This document shows positions 6,225-13,480 of a stretch of 64,000 bases of DNA, in pieces. A program made the translations under genes and the position numbers. The notes under the pieces were generated by a model. It had not been told where the DNA came from. It saw only the letters and a list, made by a program, of their open reading frames with translations, and searched no databases. The stretch comes from Candidatus Aldehydirespirator catecholifindens (GTDB lineage Bacteria > Actinomycetota > Acidimicrobiia > Acidimicrobiales > Aldehydirespiratoraceae), in contig JAPYNU010000057.1 in the NCBI GenBank assembly GCA_028283245.1, positions 1 to 64,000 of the forward strand. The letters are read 5' to 3'. The stretch's first letter is position 1, and every line of letters begins with the position of its first letter.

Positions 6225-9158
6225 CTACTCGTAGGTGCCCAGATAGCTGGCTATCACCAACTCGTCTCGGCGGATCTCGTCGGGCGAGCCCTCGGCGATC
6301 ACAGAACCTGCCTCTAGACAGTAGACGCGGTCGCTTATCCCCATCAGCAAAGCCATATCGTGCTCGATGACGACCACAGCGGCATTAAGTTCGTTCTGTA
6401 GCTGCTTGATAAGCGGAGCGAACGCTTCGGCTTCTCTCTGTGCCACACCAGCGGTGGGTTCATCAAGCAGTAACACTCTGGCATCGACCGCCAGCAGGCC
6501 CGACAACTCAACTATGCGTCGCGTGCCTGTGGAAAGCGTGCCCACAAAATGATCGGCGTAACGTTTCAAGCCCATGTAATCGATGATCTCGTCGGCTTCA
6601 GCACGTTTGAGTCGCTCCTGGCGCGGCGACGGTGGCAGAGCGGTCATTGATGCCAGCAGCCGTGACGACGACCTCGCCTCGAGAGCGACCATCAGCGACT
6701 CGCGGACTGTGAGATCGGGGTAAACGCGGGCACTCTGGAAGCTGCGGCCCAGACCGTTGGCGTGGCGTTCATGCGAACTCTTGTCAGTGACATCGGCACC
6801 GAGCACGAAGATTCTTCCCTCAGCTTCAACGAAGCCGCAGACGGCGTTGAGCAACGTGGACTTGCCAGCACCGTTGGTGCCGATCAAACCCACTAGCTCA
6901 CCGTGATCCACATGCATCGACACCCTGTCGACAGCAACGTTGCCTCCGAAGCGCACCGTCACTTCCTCGGTCTTCAAAGCCGCAACAGCTCCGACGGACG
7001 CGGAAACCTTTGCTGGCTGTGATCGGTTGTATGCCGACACGGGCACCGGCACCGTGCGAGTCGAGTTCGCCGCAGAATCAGCCGGGGACTGCTTCGAGGG
7101 CTTCAAGGGCTGCGAGGGCTGCGTCTCAGGCTCTTCGTAAGGCACCACGACGGACTGCGTCTGAGGCTGCGGCGGCAGCCTTCGTTCGGCGAGCGCTAAG
7201 AGCCTGTCGCGCGCGCCGTAGACCAACTGCATCAGACCACCCGGAAAATACATGAGCAGAACCAGCAGACCGATGTTGCTGGTCAAAAGCCTCACTAGGT
7301 CATCGAGTTGATCGGGAGTCAGCTGGGGAACACCTCGGACCCACAGCGCCCCGAGGATCGGGCCTGCCACCGAGCCAAGGCCGCCGACGATCGCGGTCGC
7401 CACCACCGCAATCGATTCGCCTGCCCTGAACGTGAAGGTGGGCTGAAGCGCAGGAACCAGGGTCACGAACAAACCGCCGGAGTATGCGGCGATGCCCCCT
7501 GCCACCCCGAAAGCTGTCAGCTTCATGCGAATCGGCGACACGGTAGACGCAGCGGCCATCTCCTCGTTGTCGCGCACCGCCATCCATGATCTCCCTATGC
7601 CGGTGCGGCGAAGCCGCGCAACCACAACAGCCACCACCGCCAGCGATAGCAGGCATAAGAAGTAATAGTTGCGCCGTGAAGCTTCGAAGTTGATGCATAC
7701 GGGGCCGATGTCGAGCACCGGCTTGGAGGCGGGCTGCAAGAAGCCAGCGCCTCCGGTGAAGAAGTCCTGATCGAACAGCCAGGCAGCCGCCGCCACCGCG
7801 AACGCAAGGGTGGTAACAGCCAGGAAAAGCCCCCGCACGCGCAGCGCGGGGAGGCCCACTATCACTGCGGCCAACACGCCGACGGCAGTAGCTATCACCA
7901 TGGCTTGAGCCCATTGCAGTTCTAGCGACAGGTCGAACAAGTCAAAAGGCACCGGGATGTCGTTGCCCTGAGTCAGCCCGATCACGGTCAAGCCGCCCAG
8001 TCCCACAAAAGCGTATTGACCCAGCGAGAGCTGGCCAGCCCAGCCGGTGAGCACCGTCATCGACATCACCACCATCGCGAACAGCAGAATGCTGGTCCAG
8101 ATAAACAGCGCGCTGCTGCTGGTGAGCGACAATCCCAGAACCACAAAAAAACCGAAGAGCGCTATGAACCCCATGGTGTTGAGGTGGCGCACCCACCACA
8201 CATACTCCAAGCGACTGGGAACGGCTTTCAGCCGCGGCGACAACGACCAAGGCTCCTGTTCGCCGTTGCTGCGAACTACAAGCACCACCACTGCCAGCAC
8301 AGCCACGAACAGGTAAACGTCGACCAGTGAACGGTTAGCTGACTCCACGTTGGCGCGGATCAGCGTCTCGGCCAGACCCACCCCAACTCCAGCAACGATC
8401 GTGGCTGGCAGCGAACGCATCCGTGCCAGAAGCGACACCACCAACACCTTCAGAAGCAGCGGCTCGGCTATTGCGGCGGTGCCTGCCTCAGCCGAGTTGA
8501 TGCCCTGCAACGGTGCCAGAAAGATTGCGGTGGCGGCCGCGAAAGCCCCCGAGACGGTCCACACGATCGTTGAGGTGCGTCGGGGCGAGGTGCCGTAGAC
8601 ACGCGCTGTGTCGGGATTGGAGGCTGATGCCCTGACCGCCAGCCCTAAGCGAGTTCGCGCCATGAACCAGGCCAATGCGAAGATCAAAACCGGGATCACC
8701 GCCAAGACGACCAGTTCTCGAGCTTGCAGACGAATGTGGTCGGTGGGTGTCCAAGTCACCTCGAACGCTGCGGGGATCGGTCCTGGGGTGACCACGCTGG
8801 GCAGGTTGACCTTGGCGAACAGCACTACCTGACCGACACCTATGGTGGCGATCAGCAAAACTAGACGGGGTGCATCGAAGAGTCGGCGGATAACTACCAG
8901 TTCGATGAGCATCCCGAGCACCGCGCAGACCGCCATAGCCAGCACGAACGACAGCCACCAACCGACTCCGTAAGAGACCAGCAGCAGCACGAACACCGCC
9001 ACCCCGAAAGCCCCAATCTCGCCGTGAGCGAAGTTGAGCACTCCGGTAGATCGATAGACCAGCACGAACCCAGCGGCGAAAGCGGCATAGGTGAGCCCTG
9101 TCACCAGGCCGAGCGCCACGGCCTGCTGGCTCACGGTAAGTCCCAGAAACTCGATCAC
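6225..9158 (-). CDS. LivH-LivM-LivG fusion: branched-chain amino acid-type ABC importer, two permeases plus ATPase
   Basis: One uninterrupted 977-residue chain holds three units that are usually separate. Residues about 1-300 are a LivH-type permease (GLVTGLTYAAFAAGFVLVYR, VLNFAHGEIGAFG). About 325-640 are a LivM-type permease (LTGWAGQLSLGQYAFVGLGG). A Pro/Ser/Gln-rich linker (about 645-735) leads to a LivG-type ATPase with Walker A GTNGAGKST (about 759-767), signature LSTGTRRIVELSG and Walker B LLLDEPTAG. The family imports branched-chain amino acids, amides or urea through the membrane with a periplasmic binding protein. It lies 31 nt after the MFS-LivF gene and is probably co-transcribed with it. 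The substrate is unknown. Confidence 0.93.
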   Translation of the reverse strand: MIEFLGLTVSQQAVALGLVTGLTYAAFAAGFVLVYRSTGVLNFAHGEIGAFGVAVFVLLLVSYGVGWWLSFVLAMAVCAVLGMLIELVVIRRLFDAPRLVLLIATIGVGQVVLFAKVNLPSVVTPGPIPAAFEVTWTPTDHIRLQARELVVLAVIPVLIFALAWFMARTRLGLAVRASASNPDTARVYGTSPRRTSTIVWTVSGAFAAATAIFLAPLQGINSAEAGTAAIAEPLLLKVLVVSLLARMRSLPATIVAGVGVGLAETLIRANVESANRSLVDVYLFVAVLAVVVLVVRSNGEQEPWSLSPRLKAVPSRLEYVWWVRHLNTMGFIALFGFFVVLGLSLTSSSALFIWTSILLFAMVVMSMTVLTGWAGQLSLGQYAFVGLGGLTVIGLTQGNDIPVPFDLFDLSLELQWAQAMVIATAVGVLAAVIVGLPALRVRGLFLAVTTLAFAVAAAAWLFDQDFFTGGAGFLQPASKPVLDIGPVCINFEASRRNYYFLCLLSLAVVAVVVARLRRTGIGRSWMAVRDNEEMAAASTVSPIRMKLTAFGVAGGIAAYSGGLFVTLVPALQPTFTFRAGESIAVVATAIVGGLGSVAGPILGALWVRGVPQLTPDQLDDLVRLLTSNIGLLVLLMYFPGGLMQLVYGARDRLLALAERRLPPQPQTQSVVVPYEEPETQPSQPLKPSKQSPADSAANSTRTVPVPVSAYNRSQPAKVSASVGAVAALKTEEVTVRFGGNVAVDRVSMHVDHGELVGLIGTNGAGKSTLLNAVCGFVEAEGRIFVLGADVTDKSSHERHANGLGRSFQSARVYPDLTVRESLMVALEARSSSRLLASMTALPPSPRQERLKRAEADEIIDYMGLKRYADHFVGTLSTGTRRIVELSGLLAVDARVLLLDEPTAGVAQREAEAFAPLIKQLQNELNAAVVVIEHDMALLMGISDRVYCLEAGSVIAEGSPDEIRRDELVIASYLGTYE

Positions 9159-9189: not shown

Positions 9190-11514
9190 TCACCGGTCTT
9201 CGCCTCCCAAAAGCACCGCCTGAGCTATGTCGTCCTGCTCGGCCAGCTGCTGAGCCGATCCTTCAAAATGAATCCTGCCCTTCTCTAAGAAGATCGCCCG
9301 GTCAGCGAGAGCCAGTGCCACATTGATCGACTGCTCGACTATCACCATCGTCTGACCCTCAGCACGCAGCCTTTCGATCACCTCCAGCAGTTCCTGCACC
9401 ACTACCGGCGCCAGCCCTAGGCTCAGCTCGTCGATGAGCAGCACCGCAGGGTCGTGCATCAAGGCCATAGCCAGAGCGAGTTGCTGCTGCTGGCCTCCAG
9501 AAAGGTCACCCGCTTTGATGCCCGCACGATCAGCAAGCCACGGGAACAGGCTCAGAGCCCGATCGGTGCGCTCTTTGACCTCATCTTTGCCGAGTTTCGA
9601 TTCCAGCAGCGAAACCTTGAGATTGTCGGTCACCGAAAGAGACTCGAAAACGCCAGCACCGCCTCTGAGATGCACCAGCCCGGCCGCAAAACGGTCTTCG
9701 GCCGTGGCGTAGGTGATGGTGCGGCCCCCTAGACGCACCACTCCGCGGCTTGGTATGCCGAGTCCGCTGACAGCACGCAGCAGGGTGGACTTGCCTGCGC
9801 CGTTGGCACCGAGCAACGCCAGCACCTCGCCTTTCGCCACTTCGAGCGATACGTCGAAAAGCACCTGCACGCTGCTGTAGGCGAAGTCAAGGTTGTTGAC
9901 TTGCAGTGCTGGGAGCGATTCGGGATCAGCCTCTATCCGAGCTCGTTCTTGATGTTCTTCACGCAGCTCCTCAACCGAGCGATAAATGTCATAGCGGATG
10001 AAGCGGCTGCCGTAGAAGATCAACCCGCCACCAGCCAGAGCCGCCGATGGTGCCATTACTAGCATGGCGGTGCGTTCGTTGAGGGCATCTGAAAACTGCC
10101 CCGATATCAACCCGCAGAAGAAGCCACCTACCAACAAGACGAACATCGGCAGCAGAGCGAAAGCTTGAGCACGAATACGATAGGGCGACACTGCCGCTAT
10201 CACCGCTGGAGCCGCTACCAGAGCCATGGCCGCAAGGGTCTGGGCAACCGCTGTCAGCGCTACCAGCAACCCGATGGTCTTGATGGACAGAGCCACTGCG
10301 AAGAGCAAACCCGAAGCCATAGCGCACCAACCCGCTAGGCGCATCATCAAAGCGGGATCACTGCGGAATCGGCTATCGAAAAGCCTTCGCGCCAGAGGCA
10401 ATCCGGCCAGCGCCGCCACCCAGATGAGTGACTCGACCACACCGCGCTGAAAGGGTCCCATGGCGTATTTGTCTTCCAACAGCAGATTGAACTGGACAGG
10501 CAAAGCGACCGAAACGAAGCCCAGAATCCCTGCTCCAGTGGACACATACCAGAAAGTCTTGGATTTGCGCAATCGTGCGTAGGCCACGCCGATCGGCACA
10601 GGCAGCGTGTCCGCCTCATGGCAGTTGTCTCCAGAAACGATGGCCTTGTCGAAACGGCCGCGCGGCGGTTCACGCAGCATCACCGACGATACGACTGCGG
10701 CTACCAGAGGTGCCACCGCAACAGCGAAGAAGGCTGACCGCCACGGCTCGTCGCCGCCCATCAGCACAGCGATCCCGCCGATCATCAGCGGACCCAGCAG
10801 CCGGCCAGCACAACTTCCGATTCTTTCTAGAGCGAAGATGCGGCTGCGAGCCGGAAGCGGATAAGTGTCTGCCAGGATCGAGTTCGTCACAACAATGCGA
10901 TAAGACTGACCCAGCCCGGTAGCCGCATTTGTCAAAAACAGCTGGAAAGAGGTGACAACGAGACCGCTCAAAAACGTGGCGACACCCCAGAAAATAGAAG
11001 CAACAGGGATGATGAACGCCCGCTTGAAGCGGTCCGCGAACACAGCCATTGGGATCGCGCCGAGCGCCAAGACGACACCGCCAAAACCGAAGATTCCCAA
11101 AAGCGCTGTGTCGCTAATATTGAGAGAGTGCTGGATGTCGGGCGCGAGCACCCGAATGGCACGGGGCAACTCGTCAATGAACGCCAGCAGTGCCATCACG
11201 AACACCGTGGCCCGGCCGCCTGCACGTAAAGACTCTCGCAAAGTCATGGGCTCAGCACCGACTCCCGGCAGCAGGTCATCGGGGAGAACAGCTTCGGGGT
11301 CGCGTTCTGCTTGCTCGGCTCGGGGGCTGAGCTCTTCGGTGAGGATCTCTTCAGCCAATTCAGCAGCCGAGCGATCCACCGGGACCGCCCGGTTTGCGAC
11401 CGCACCCTGGGAACGCTTGCGGTGCCTTTCAGGAGCCTCGTATTCAGTCGTCTCAGACTGGTCCTGTGACTCAGACTGGTCTTGTGACTCAGACTGGTCC
11501 TGTGACATAGGCAT
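9190..11514 (-). CDS. MFS transporter fused to LivF-type ABC ATPase
   Basis: A single chain of about 774 residues. After a hydrophilic N-terminal tail, about residues 95-500 form a 12-helix MFS domain (AVFADRFKRAFIIPV is the loop between helices 2 and 3). About 530-774 form a complete LivF-type ATPase with Walker A GANGAGKST, signature LSGGQQQQLALA, Walker B VLLIDELSLGLAP and switch His/Gln region IVEQS. ATG at 11514 is preferred; an upstream TTG at 11562 and an ATG at 11508 are alternatives. It precedes the LivHMG gene by 31 nt and supplies the second ATPase that system needs. The reading frame is intact, so the fusion is not an assembly frameshift visible here. What the MFS part moves is unknown. 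Confidence 0.9.
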   Translation of the reverse strand: MPMSQDQSESQDQSESQDQSETTEYEAPERHRKRSQGAVANRAVPVDRSAAELAEEILTEELSPRAEQAERDPEAVLPDDLLPGVGAEPMTLRESLRAGGRATVFVMALLAFIDELPRAIRVLAPDIQHSLNISDTALLGIFGFGGVVLALGAIPMAVFADRFKRAFIIPVASIFWGVATFLSGLVVTSFQLFLTNAATGLGQSYRIVVTNSILADTYPLPARSRIFALERIGSCAGRLLGPLMIGGIAVLMGGDEPWRSAFFAVAVAPLVAAVVSSVMLREPPRGRFDKAIVSGDNCHEADTLPVPIGVAYARLRKSKTFWYVSTGAGILGFVSVALPVQFNLLLEDKYAMGPFQRGVVESLIWVAALAGLPLARRLFDSRFRSDPALMMRLAGWCAMASGLLFAVALSIKTIGLLVALTAVAQTLAAMALVAAPAVIAAVSPYRIRAQAFALLPMFVLLVGGFFCGLISGQFSDALNERTAMLVMAPSAALAGGGLIFYGSRFIRYDIYRSVEELREEHQERARIEADPESLPALQVNNLDFAYSSVQVLFDVSLEVAKGEVLALLGANGAGKSTLLRAVSGLGIPSRGVVRLGGRTITYATAEDRFAAGLVHLRGGAGVFESLSVTDNLKVSLLESKLGKDEVKERTDRALSLFPWLADRAGIKAGDLSGGQQQQLALAMALMHDPAVLLIDELSLGLAPVVVQELLEVIERLRAEGQTMVIVEQSINVALALADRAIFLEKGRIHFEGSAQQLAEQDDIAQAVLLGGEDR
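11443..11510 (-). repeat. In-frame 18-bp repeats encoding SQDQSE units
   Basis: Near-identical 18-bp units (gtcctgtgactcagactg type) are repeated about three times at roughly 11461-11510. Being 18 bp they stay in frame and encode repeated SQDQSE hexapeptides at the very N-terminus of the MFS-LivF protein. Confidence 0.85.
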
Positions 11515-11740
11515 CCCCGCTAAACTCTCAGCAGCCAAAATTGACGTATCCAGCGCCTGCAACAGTAGTCGCCATGACCAGGGCGACAGAACGCCCGTTC
11601 ACCGCAACGCAGAGGCGATGCAGACGCTGCGAGACCGATCCAGAAACTGCTGTGCAACCCCTTATATGATGGCAGTCGTCATAAACGCTTGATCATTCAG
11701 GGTCATCTTTGAGACCGCAGACGCTAAAGAGAGAACAGCA

Positions 11741-13480
11741 ATGACTTCTAGGCTGAGTCGAGGGCTTGCAATCTTTGCATGTGCAGTTGTTGTGGCTGCT
11801 GGCTGCGGAGGCGAGGTCAGCGACTCCGACACAGACAGCGACAGCACCACAGCGTTTGGGGCTTCAGCGACCAACAGCGACGAGACCCAGCCGCTGGAGT
11901 CGGACGATTCCAATGCGAGTTCCACCAGCGCCGAAGCCGCCGAGCCAACAATGCCAGCAGCAGCCGCTGATGTGCCGCCTGCAGCACCTGAGAAGTCACC
12001 AGCCAGCGAAACCGAAGACGAGGATGAAACTGCTGGTAGCGAGCAGCAGAGCGCGACTCGCAACATTTATGACGACCCACGCGATGGCCTGTTCGACGAG
12101 TTCCAAGCCACTATGGACCGTGGCGATCATCCTTTCATGCAGATTGATGCTTTCTGCAAAGCCCACGACCCCGCTCCCGAGCGTGTCGCCACAGACGCGG
12201 GCATCCAAGCAGACTCCATTTCGGTGGTGCATTTTCGCCAGAAGATCGAGAATCTGGTGCAGATCGGTTTCGCCAGCGATGTGGGCGACACCCGCGAGAT
12301 GGGCGAGACTTTCGTCGCTTACGTGAACGAGCAGTGTGGCGGCGTGCGAGGCCGCACGATCGACCTTCACACCATCGAGGTCGACGTGATCGACAATCAA
12401 GCGCAGGAACTCCAATTTGCGGCCTGCATCGAAGCCACAGAGGATCACAACGCCGTCATTGTTTTGAACACGACCGGAATCTTTGAGGAGGCGGCGCTGT
12501 GCATTGTTGATCAGCAACAGACCATGCTCATACTCAACACCTCTATGCCGGAGTTGATCATAGAGCGCAGCGAAGGCCGTCTGATCTCTTCGACAAACAG
12601 CGCCGAGCAGGCACTGCGAACACTTGCTCTCGATCTGATCGAAAGCGGTGAACTCGAAGGCAAAACCGTCGGTGTTGCGGCATCGGACGCACCGGGCAGG
12701 TACGAGGCGGTAGAAACCGCCCTCGTTGATGTGCTGCGAGCCAACGGAGTTAACGTCGCCGTGTTCGACAAACTCGGCTGCACTGGAGTCCCTTGCATGG
12801 TCGGAGGCGTGGAAACGGTGGGTCGGATGCGCAGCGCCGGAGTGGACGTGTTCTTCAACGTGCTCAACATCTTGACCGCCCCGCCCTTCTTTAACGAGAT
12901 GGCCAACCAGGGATTCGAGCCTGGAGATGTGCAGTTCTATGCAAGCACCTTCAACAGTCAAGCCAACGAGCTTGTCAGTTCCAAGATCGTGCAGTTTGGT
13001 GGCGCTGGCGCTGGCGAACTCTACAACGGGGCGGTCATGCTGGACTCGCGCGACATCGGCGGCTACCGACTAGATGATTACGAACCGAAGGCGTTCAACG
13101 AAATGTGCGCTGAAACCTACGCAAGCTACAGCCCCTCGCGAACGCGCCACGATATCGAGAGCGCTCCGGGTGAAGCCAGCGCCCCCTACGGAATGGTCAC
13201 CAACGTGTGCAGTTTTCTGCGGATGACAATGCGAGCGATTTACGACGCTGGGGACAACCCCACCACCGATGACATCCATTCCGCTCTTGTTAACCTGGGG
13301 GCTGTCGACGGCAACGAGATGCTCCCCAACTCGATCCGGCCAGACAAGACAACTACCCCCGACGTGTACCGCATTTTTCAGTGGGAGTTTCCTTGCACCA
13401 AAAACTACGAATTTGTTGTGCCCGGCTCACCCGACGGAATCTGTATCTACCCGATAAGCGAGTTCCTGCCCATCTCCTGA
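11741..13480 (+). CDS. Liv-type ABC transporter substrate-binding lipoprotein
   Basis: A 579-residue extracytoplasmic solute-binding protein of the periplasmic-binding-protein type 1 (LivK/amide-binding) class. A lipoprotein signal ends in VVAAGC at about residue 21, followed by a long Ser/Asp/Thr/Ala-rich acidic tether to about residue 110 and then the ligand-binding fold. It is longer than typical LivK (about 370-400 residues) mainly because of the tether. It is divergent from the MFS-LivF and LivHMG genes and is the obvious receptor for that importer. A weak purine-rich ribosome-binding site (gagagaac) precedes the ATG. Confidence 0.88.
   Translation: MTSRLSRGLAIFACAVVVAAGCGGEVSDSDTDSDSTTAFGASATNSDETQPLESDDSNASSTSAEAAEPTMPAAAADVPPAAPEKSPASETEDEDETAGSEQQSATRNIYDDPRDGLFDEFQATMDRGDHPFMQIDAFCKAHDPAPERVATDAGIQADSISVVHFRQKIENLVQIGFASDVGDTREMGETFVAYVNEQCGGVRGRTIDLHTIEVDVIDNQAQELQFAACIEATEDHNAVIVLNTTGIFEEAALCIVDQQQTMLILNTSMPELIIERSEGRLISSTNSAEQALRTLALDLIESGELEGKTVGVAASDAPGRYEAVETALVDVLRANGVNVAVFDKLGCTGVPCMVGGVETVGRMRSAGVDVFFNVLNILTAPPFFNEMANQGFEPGDVQFYASTFNSQANELVSSKIVQFGGAGAGELYNGAVMLDSRDIGGYRLDDYEPKAFNEMCAETYASYSPSRTRHDIESAPGEASAPYGMVTNVCSFLRMTMRAIYDAGDNPTTDDIHSALVNLGAVDGNEMLPNSIRPDKTTTPDVYRIFQWEFPCTKNYEFVVPGSPDGICIYPISEFLPIS

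Follow-up and report, generated by a model that had tools for sequence, protein, structure and literature searches.

The window, i.e., the whole 64,000-nucleotide stretch of DNA that was analyzed, carries a minus-strand gene in which an MFS domain is joined to a LivF-type ABC ATPase (Table 1). The reading frame is free of stop codons from a TTG at 11562 down to the stop at 9190, and the ATG at 11514, the start chosen in the preliminary description, lies within this frame. Both domains are located in one chain, as that description had proposed for a single uninterrupted frame. Indeed, the profile search that it had suggested as a check matched Pfam MFS_1 (residues 136–469, E 2e-26) and ABC_tran (residues 569–712, E 6e-25) in the same protein. 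The NCBIfam UrtE and LivF models align over residues 551–788, with scores below their equivalog cut-offs. The ATPase part is complete, containing GANGAGKST as Walker A, LSGGQ as signature, and LLIDE as Walker B, and its best match among solved structures is the T. maritima ABC transporter 1ji0 (Z 23.2, 239 residues). Hydropathy averaged over 39 homologues gave ten peaks, two of them wide enough for helix pairs, which is consistent with the 12 helices initially assigned to the MFS domain.

Table 1. Features of the MFS–LivF locus, in positions of the window.
Feature	Position	Strand	Basis or remark
MFS–LivF fusion gene	9190..11514	(-)	ATG start at 11514
Spinster-type MFS domain	9958..11250	(-)	fusion protein P0001, aa 105–535; Pfam MFS_1, E 2e-26; PDB 6e8j, HnSpns
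Q219 in TM4, Gln where HnSpns has E129 (proton master switch)	10906..10908	(-)	alignment to HnSpns
Linker between MFS and LivF domains, about 15 residues	9913..9957	(-)	
LivF ATPase domain	9199..9912	(-)	aa 551–788; Pfam, NCBIfam; best solved fold match 1ji0
Walker A, GANGAGKST	9784..9810	(-)	motif reading; columns invariant in homologue alignment
ABC signature, LSGGQ, canonical	9490..9504	(-)	motif reading and homologue alignment
Tandem repeat with an 18-base unit, coding for repeated SQDQSE; part of the fusion's variable N-terminal tail	11452..11506	(-)	
LivH–LivM–LivG fusion gene, 977 aa	6225..9158	(-)	Pfam, NCBIfam; neighbor of MFS–LivF gene
LivH part	about 8259–9158	(-)	within 6225..9158 gene
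LivM part	about 7209–8183	(-)	within 6225..9158 gene
LivG part	6228–6980	(-)	within 6225..9158 gene
Substrate-binding protein gene, Peripla_BP_6	11741..13480	(+)	divergent; PF13458, E 2e-11

The adjacent gene encodes LivH, LivM, and LivG domains, as was first proposed, giving an importer encoded by two genes. The BPD_transp_2 permease family (PF02653) matches two stretches of its product (P0002). The window thus contains what characterizes a Liv/HAAT system: two permease domains, LivG and LivF ATPases, and a binding-protein gene with the operon. The window's own genome holds 25 BPD_transp_2 matches, yet one fused MFS only, and the other Liv loci sampled there lacked an MFS domain. PADLOC matches reflected generic ATPase similarity.

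The fusion is not peculiar to this genome. Of the 395 class genomes scanned, at least about 100 carry full-length or near-full-length fused homologues, 33–75% identical to the query; this is a lower bound, since scoring was limited to two candidates in each genome. A scan of GTDB species, some of whose genomes overlap with the 395-genome set, yielded 13 contigs with full-length homologues (41–74% identity). Several homologues lie on single-contig chromosomes with no stop at the junction, and genomes of the same genus carry genes 75% identical to the window's fusion. The preliminary description had named separate MFS and LivF genes in relatives, with a frameshift or assembly join here, as the case against it; no such separate genes were seen at the equivalent locus in relatives, and the fusion is conserved instead. 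The window belongs to a draft genome of 104 contigs, but an assembly join or frameshift artefact has a negligible probability, since the same stop-free junction recurs in at least about 100 genomes, single-contig chromosomes included, and in the 75% identical genes of the same genus. The MFS–LivF fusion is therefore real, a conclusion that we regard as practically certain. One fused homologue (G378:C27:75916-78078) has an internal TGA and is likely a pseudogene or a sequencing error.

All full-length homologues examined lie in Liv-type operons, which agrees with the earlier assignment of the MFS domain to the importer. A domain scan using window-derived queries revealed three gene orders. Type A is that of the window (MFS–LivF plus LivH–LivM–LivG), type B consists of LivH–LivM plus MFS–LivF–LivG, and type C, represented by locus L130, consists of LivH–LivM, MFS–LivF, and a separate LivG. 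In every gene order, the MFS domain is N-terminal to LivF. The linker comprises 13–17 residues in type A and 22–44 in type B. A gene carrying LivH adjoins 46/46 fused genes in one locus set, and LivH–LivM precedes the type B fused gene in 15/15 cases. Paralogous fused gene pairs about 5–10 kb apart occur at L012, L018, and L020, where they are divergent and each heads its own operon, and at G380:C16 and G388:C28.

A substrate-binding protein gene is present at 29/32 type A loci. Type B loci have, at 20 of 22, a conserved N-terminally membrane-anchored protein of ~575 residues, which is probably the binding protein and was taken as such; the one member tested (L085:9234-10949) had no match in Pfam or among PDB sequences. 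Two binding-protein seeds searched against 400 kb of random regions gave zero matches. Genes for acyl-CoA synthetase, acyl-CoA dehydrogenase, enoyl-CoA hydratase, SDR, and luciferase-like proteins recur near the operons. Naming a substrate from these neighbors was rejected because their density is similar in random 20-kb regions of comparable genomes. Cytochrome P450 genes are enriched near type A operons (2.4 vs. 0.5 per 100 kb in random regions; 11/32 vs. 1/20 loci), as at L011, L014, L021, L091, L171, and L178, and this excess is too weak to name the substrate.

The MFS domain belongs to the Spinster (Spns) branch. It matches HnSpns (PDB 6e8j) with E 1e-11 from the single sequence and E 3e-36 from a profile, and the same profile matches SPNS1 and SPNS2 at E 2e-28 to 4e-21. 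In HnSpns, Glu129 of TM4 has been termed the intracellular protonation master switch and is regulated by Asp41; the D41N/E129Q variant loses the proton-dependent change on the intracellular side, and the transition requires the relay Asp87–Arg91–Asp142 (PMC9440201). The same role has been reported for the TM4 Glu of a mycobacterial Spns in a preprint (PMC13192786).

Residue columns were counted at 70% redundancy in 61 fused chains and in 16 lone Spns from outside the phylum. At the E129 column, all 16 lone Spns have Glu and none of the 61 fused chains does; the latter have Lys (19), Gln (15), Arg (11), and others, including Asp (3). Further lone Spns copies from an added scan also have Glu there. 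A scan of 446 columns for residues conserved in lone Spns and lost in fused chains identified three columns, with E129 alone at 100% vs. 0%. The motif-A relay, in contrast to this switch, is kept in the fused chains (D87 in 57/61, R91 in 61/61, and D142 in 60/61), and all three residues are present in the window. The window protein has Pro for D41, Asn for R122, Gln for E129, and Asp for R289. The periplasmic salt bridge D60:R289 is absent, as the window retains D60 but has Asp at 289; R289 is found in 7/61 fused chains, the alignment in TM7 being less certain. Of 24 type B chains, 23 retain the TM1 Asp. L136 and L138, two actinobacterial relatives that are lone carriers, have Gln at the E129 position, so loss of the TM4 Glu is not strictly tied to fusion, and the lineage of L137 and L227 has Asp at this position within the motif GxWDPCDNP. 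Since the TM4 Glu is absent, we class the MFS domain as a Spns relative and not as a proton-coupled Spns transporter. With the gating relay kept and the proton switch lost, the domain looks like a gating or transport module that has ceased to be driven by protons and forms part of a Liv ABC complex.

The two ATPases differ in their motifs. LivF of the fused systems has a canonical Walker A, an LSGGQ-type signature, DELSLG, and VEQS at the switch. In LivG of most members, LSTG(T/S)RR replaces the signature, and the switch His is intact in most; the window has LSTGTRR (P0002, residues 874–880). This motif differs from the signatures of five ordinary LivGs read in the window's genome. As judged from these motifs, we expect the composite site formed by the LivG Walker motifs and the LivF signature to be fully competent and its counterpart to be degenerate. 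Values of dN/dS from nine pairs were 0.03–0.22 for the MFS part, like those for LivF (0.03–0.17); hence, purifying selection acts on the MFS part, which is no decaying passenger. AlphaFold2 models of MFS–LivF (pLDDT 61, with the N-terminal half of the MFS domain poor at about 30) and of LivHMG (pLDDT 42, too low for use) were of low quality, and structure searches therefore covered LivF only. In the former model, TM12 and the linker form a single helix (model residues 398–447, moderate pLDDT), and such a continuous helix would allow mechanical coupling between the two domains.

In a phylum sample of 396 genomes, the MFS profile identified 20 carriers, including 7 from other classes. One class outside Acidimicrobiia had several copies in each of the three genomes examined. 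Among 299 Pseudomonadota, 119 Acidobacteriota, and 117 Myxococcota genomes sampled (phyla assigned from the starting record titles), no fusion was detected and only lone Spns were found, at 192 bits or less; the long open frames of L158, L159, L228, and L231, from other phyla, contained no LivF. In the MFS tree, 63 sequences form a single clade (support 100/100) that is divided into A and B. The LivF tree reproduces the A and B clades, with the fused LivFs standing apart from ordinary LivFs (99/93). Lone MFS proteins without LivF, L124 (6647-9559)/L107 and L135 (5918-7780), nest on the B side of the fused clade, and this placement reads best as later loss of the ATPase. Similarly, L128:1-1098 is a LivG–LivF pair without MFS, at a distance of ~3 kb from one of the type B operons; its LivF (220-1098) nests among the fused LivFs, and from this position later loss appears the best reading. 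These cases show that the two domains can become separated again. A third small fused lineage (L137:5820-11274 and L227:826-3639) has an MFS domain nearer to lone Spns and a LivF beside the fused clade. Collectively, the tree topology fits one old fusion followed by losses, and there may have been two fusions.

We propose that the fusion protein would be a subunit of a Liv-type importer (binding protein, LivH/LivM, and LivG/LivF) with a Spinster MFS domain built in, one MFS per LivF. LivF pairs with LivG beneath LivH/LivM, so the MFS domain would have to sit beside the permease. If the docking of LivF on LivH/LivM follows that of other Liv importers, MFS–LivF very probably shares one complex with the permease. 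Because the gates are kept and the proton switch is gone, the MFS domain would most likely provide the same solute, or a related and probably amphiphilic one, with a second path or gate that protons do not drive. We slightly favor the view that it still moves or gates a solute. The nucleotide state of LivF could set the opening of the MFS domain via the continuous TM12–linker helix; we infer this coupling, and a drive by the ATP cycle is put forward tentatively. It is rather unlikely that the carrier has swapped a proton motor for an ATP motor, with one ATPase pair powering two membrane folds. The complete reading, a Liv importer whose MFS domain is a second non-proton path or gate set by the LivF cycle, has about an even chance of being correct.

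Alternatively, the MFS domain may no longer transport and may serve as an accessory subunit by anchoring LivF, sensing a ligand in a transceptor-like manner, and tuning the ATPase. Loss of the proton switch and the short linker agree with such a role, as does the structural or gating nature of the residues in the most strongly retained columns. Yet the near-invariant motif-A relay and the LivF-like purifying selection exceed the needs of an anchor, and we consider this explanation unlikely. An ordinary autonomous carrier, operating by uniport or by ion coupling through other residues and tethered to LivF only so that the two are co-expressed or substrate is handed over, would account for the retained 12-helix fold and gating relay; the TM1 Asp of type B chains and the acidic TM4 residue of L137 and L227 could serve it as well. 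However, the conserved TM4 Glu is missing from all 61 fused chains, the window lacks the TM1 Asp (Pro), the TM4 Arg (Asn), and the TM7 Arg (Asp), and LivF as the sole fusion partner in any gene order suggests a mechanical link over co-expression. This explanation is accordingly judged improbable. The preliminary description had suggested a coupled exchanger in which the ABC part imports one molecule and the MFS part expels another. Both parts are indeed in one chain, and the Spns branch includes exporters, e.g., SPNS2, which exports sphingosine-1-phosphate (PMC11739509); nevertheless, there is no second substrate, no nearby export gene, and no counter-ion residue at hand, and such an exchanger is very improbable.

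No description of such an MFS–LivF fusion was found in the open-access literature searched, and this combination of domains may already be present, unexamined, in protein databases. Textbooks keep ATP-driven ABC transporters and gradient-driven MFS carriers separate. Here, both transport types occur in one chain, and many genomes of the class, as well as some further Actinomycetota, keep this arrangement. The lost TM4 switch makes it a testable question whether ATP hydrolysis drives the alternating access of an MFS domain. It also matters for annotation, as the label "MFS transporter" or "LivF" each misses half of the protein. The Spinster branch, the missing switch, and the several gene orders are additions to the initial account.

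Three known systems invite comparison. In ECF-type importers (CbiMNQO and relatives), ABC ATPases energize an additional kind of membrane component; the present system differs in having no S or T component and in possessing two ordinary Liv permeases besides the MFS domain. It resembles the Liv/HAAT importers (LivHMGF with LivJ/K; UrtABCDE) in its two BPD_transp_2 permeases, LivG and LivF, the Peripla_BP_6 protein, the canonical LivF motifs with VEQS at the switch, and the LivG switch His. Unlike in those importers, the subunits are fused as LivHMG or LivHM, a 12-helix MFS domain is attached to the N-terminus of LivF, and the LivG signature of most fused systems is the unusual LSTG(T/S)RR. With Spns proteins (HnSpns 6e8j, SPNS1, and SPNS2), the MFS domain shares sequence similarity, the 12-helix fold, the motif-A relay, and the REPxRG loop. 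In contrast to them, the fused chains examined are without the TM4 Glu (E129), often lose the TM1 Asp/Arg and the TM7 Arg, bear an ABC ATPase, and form a clade of their own (100/100).
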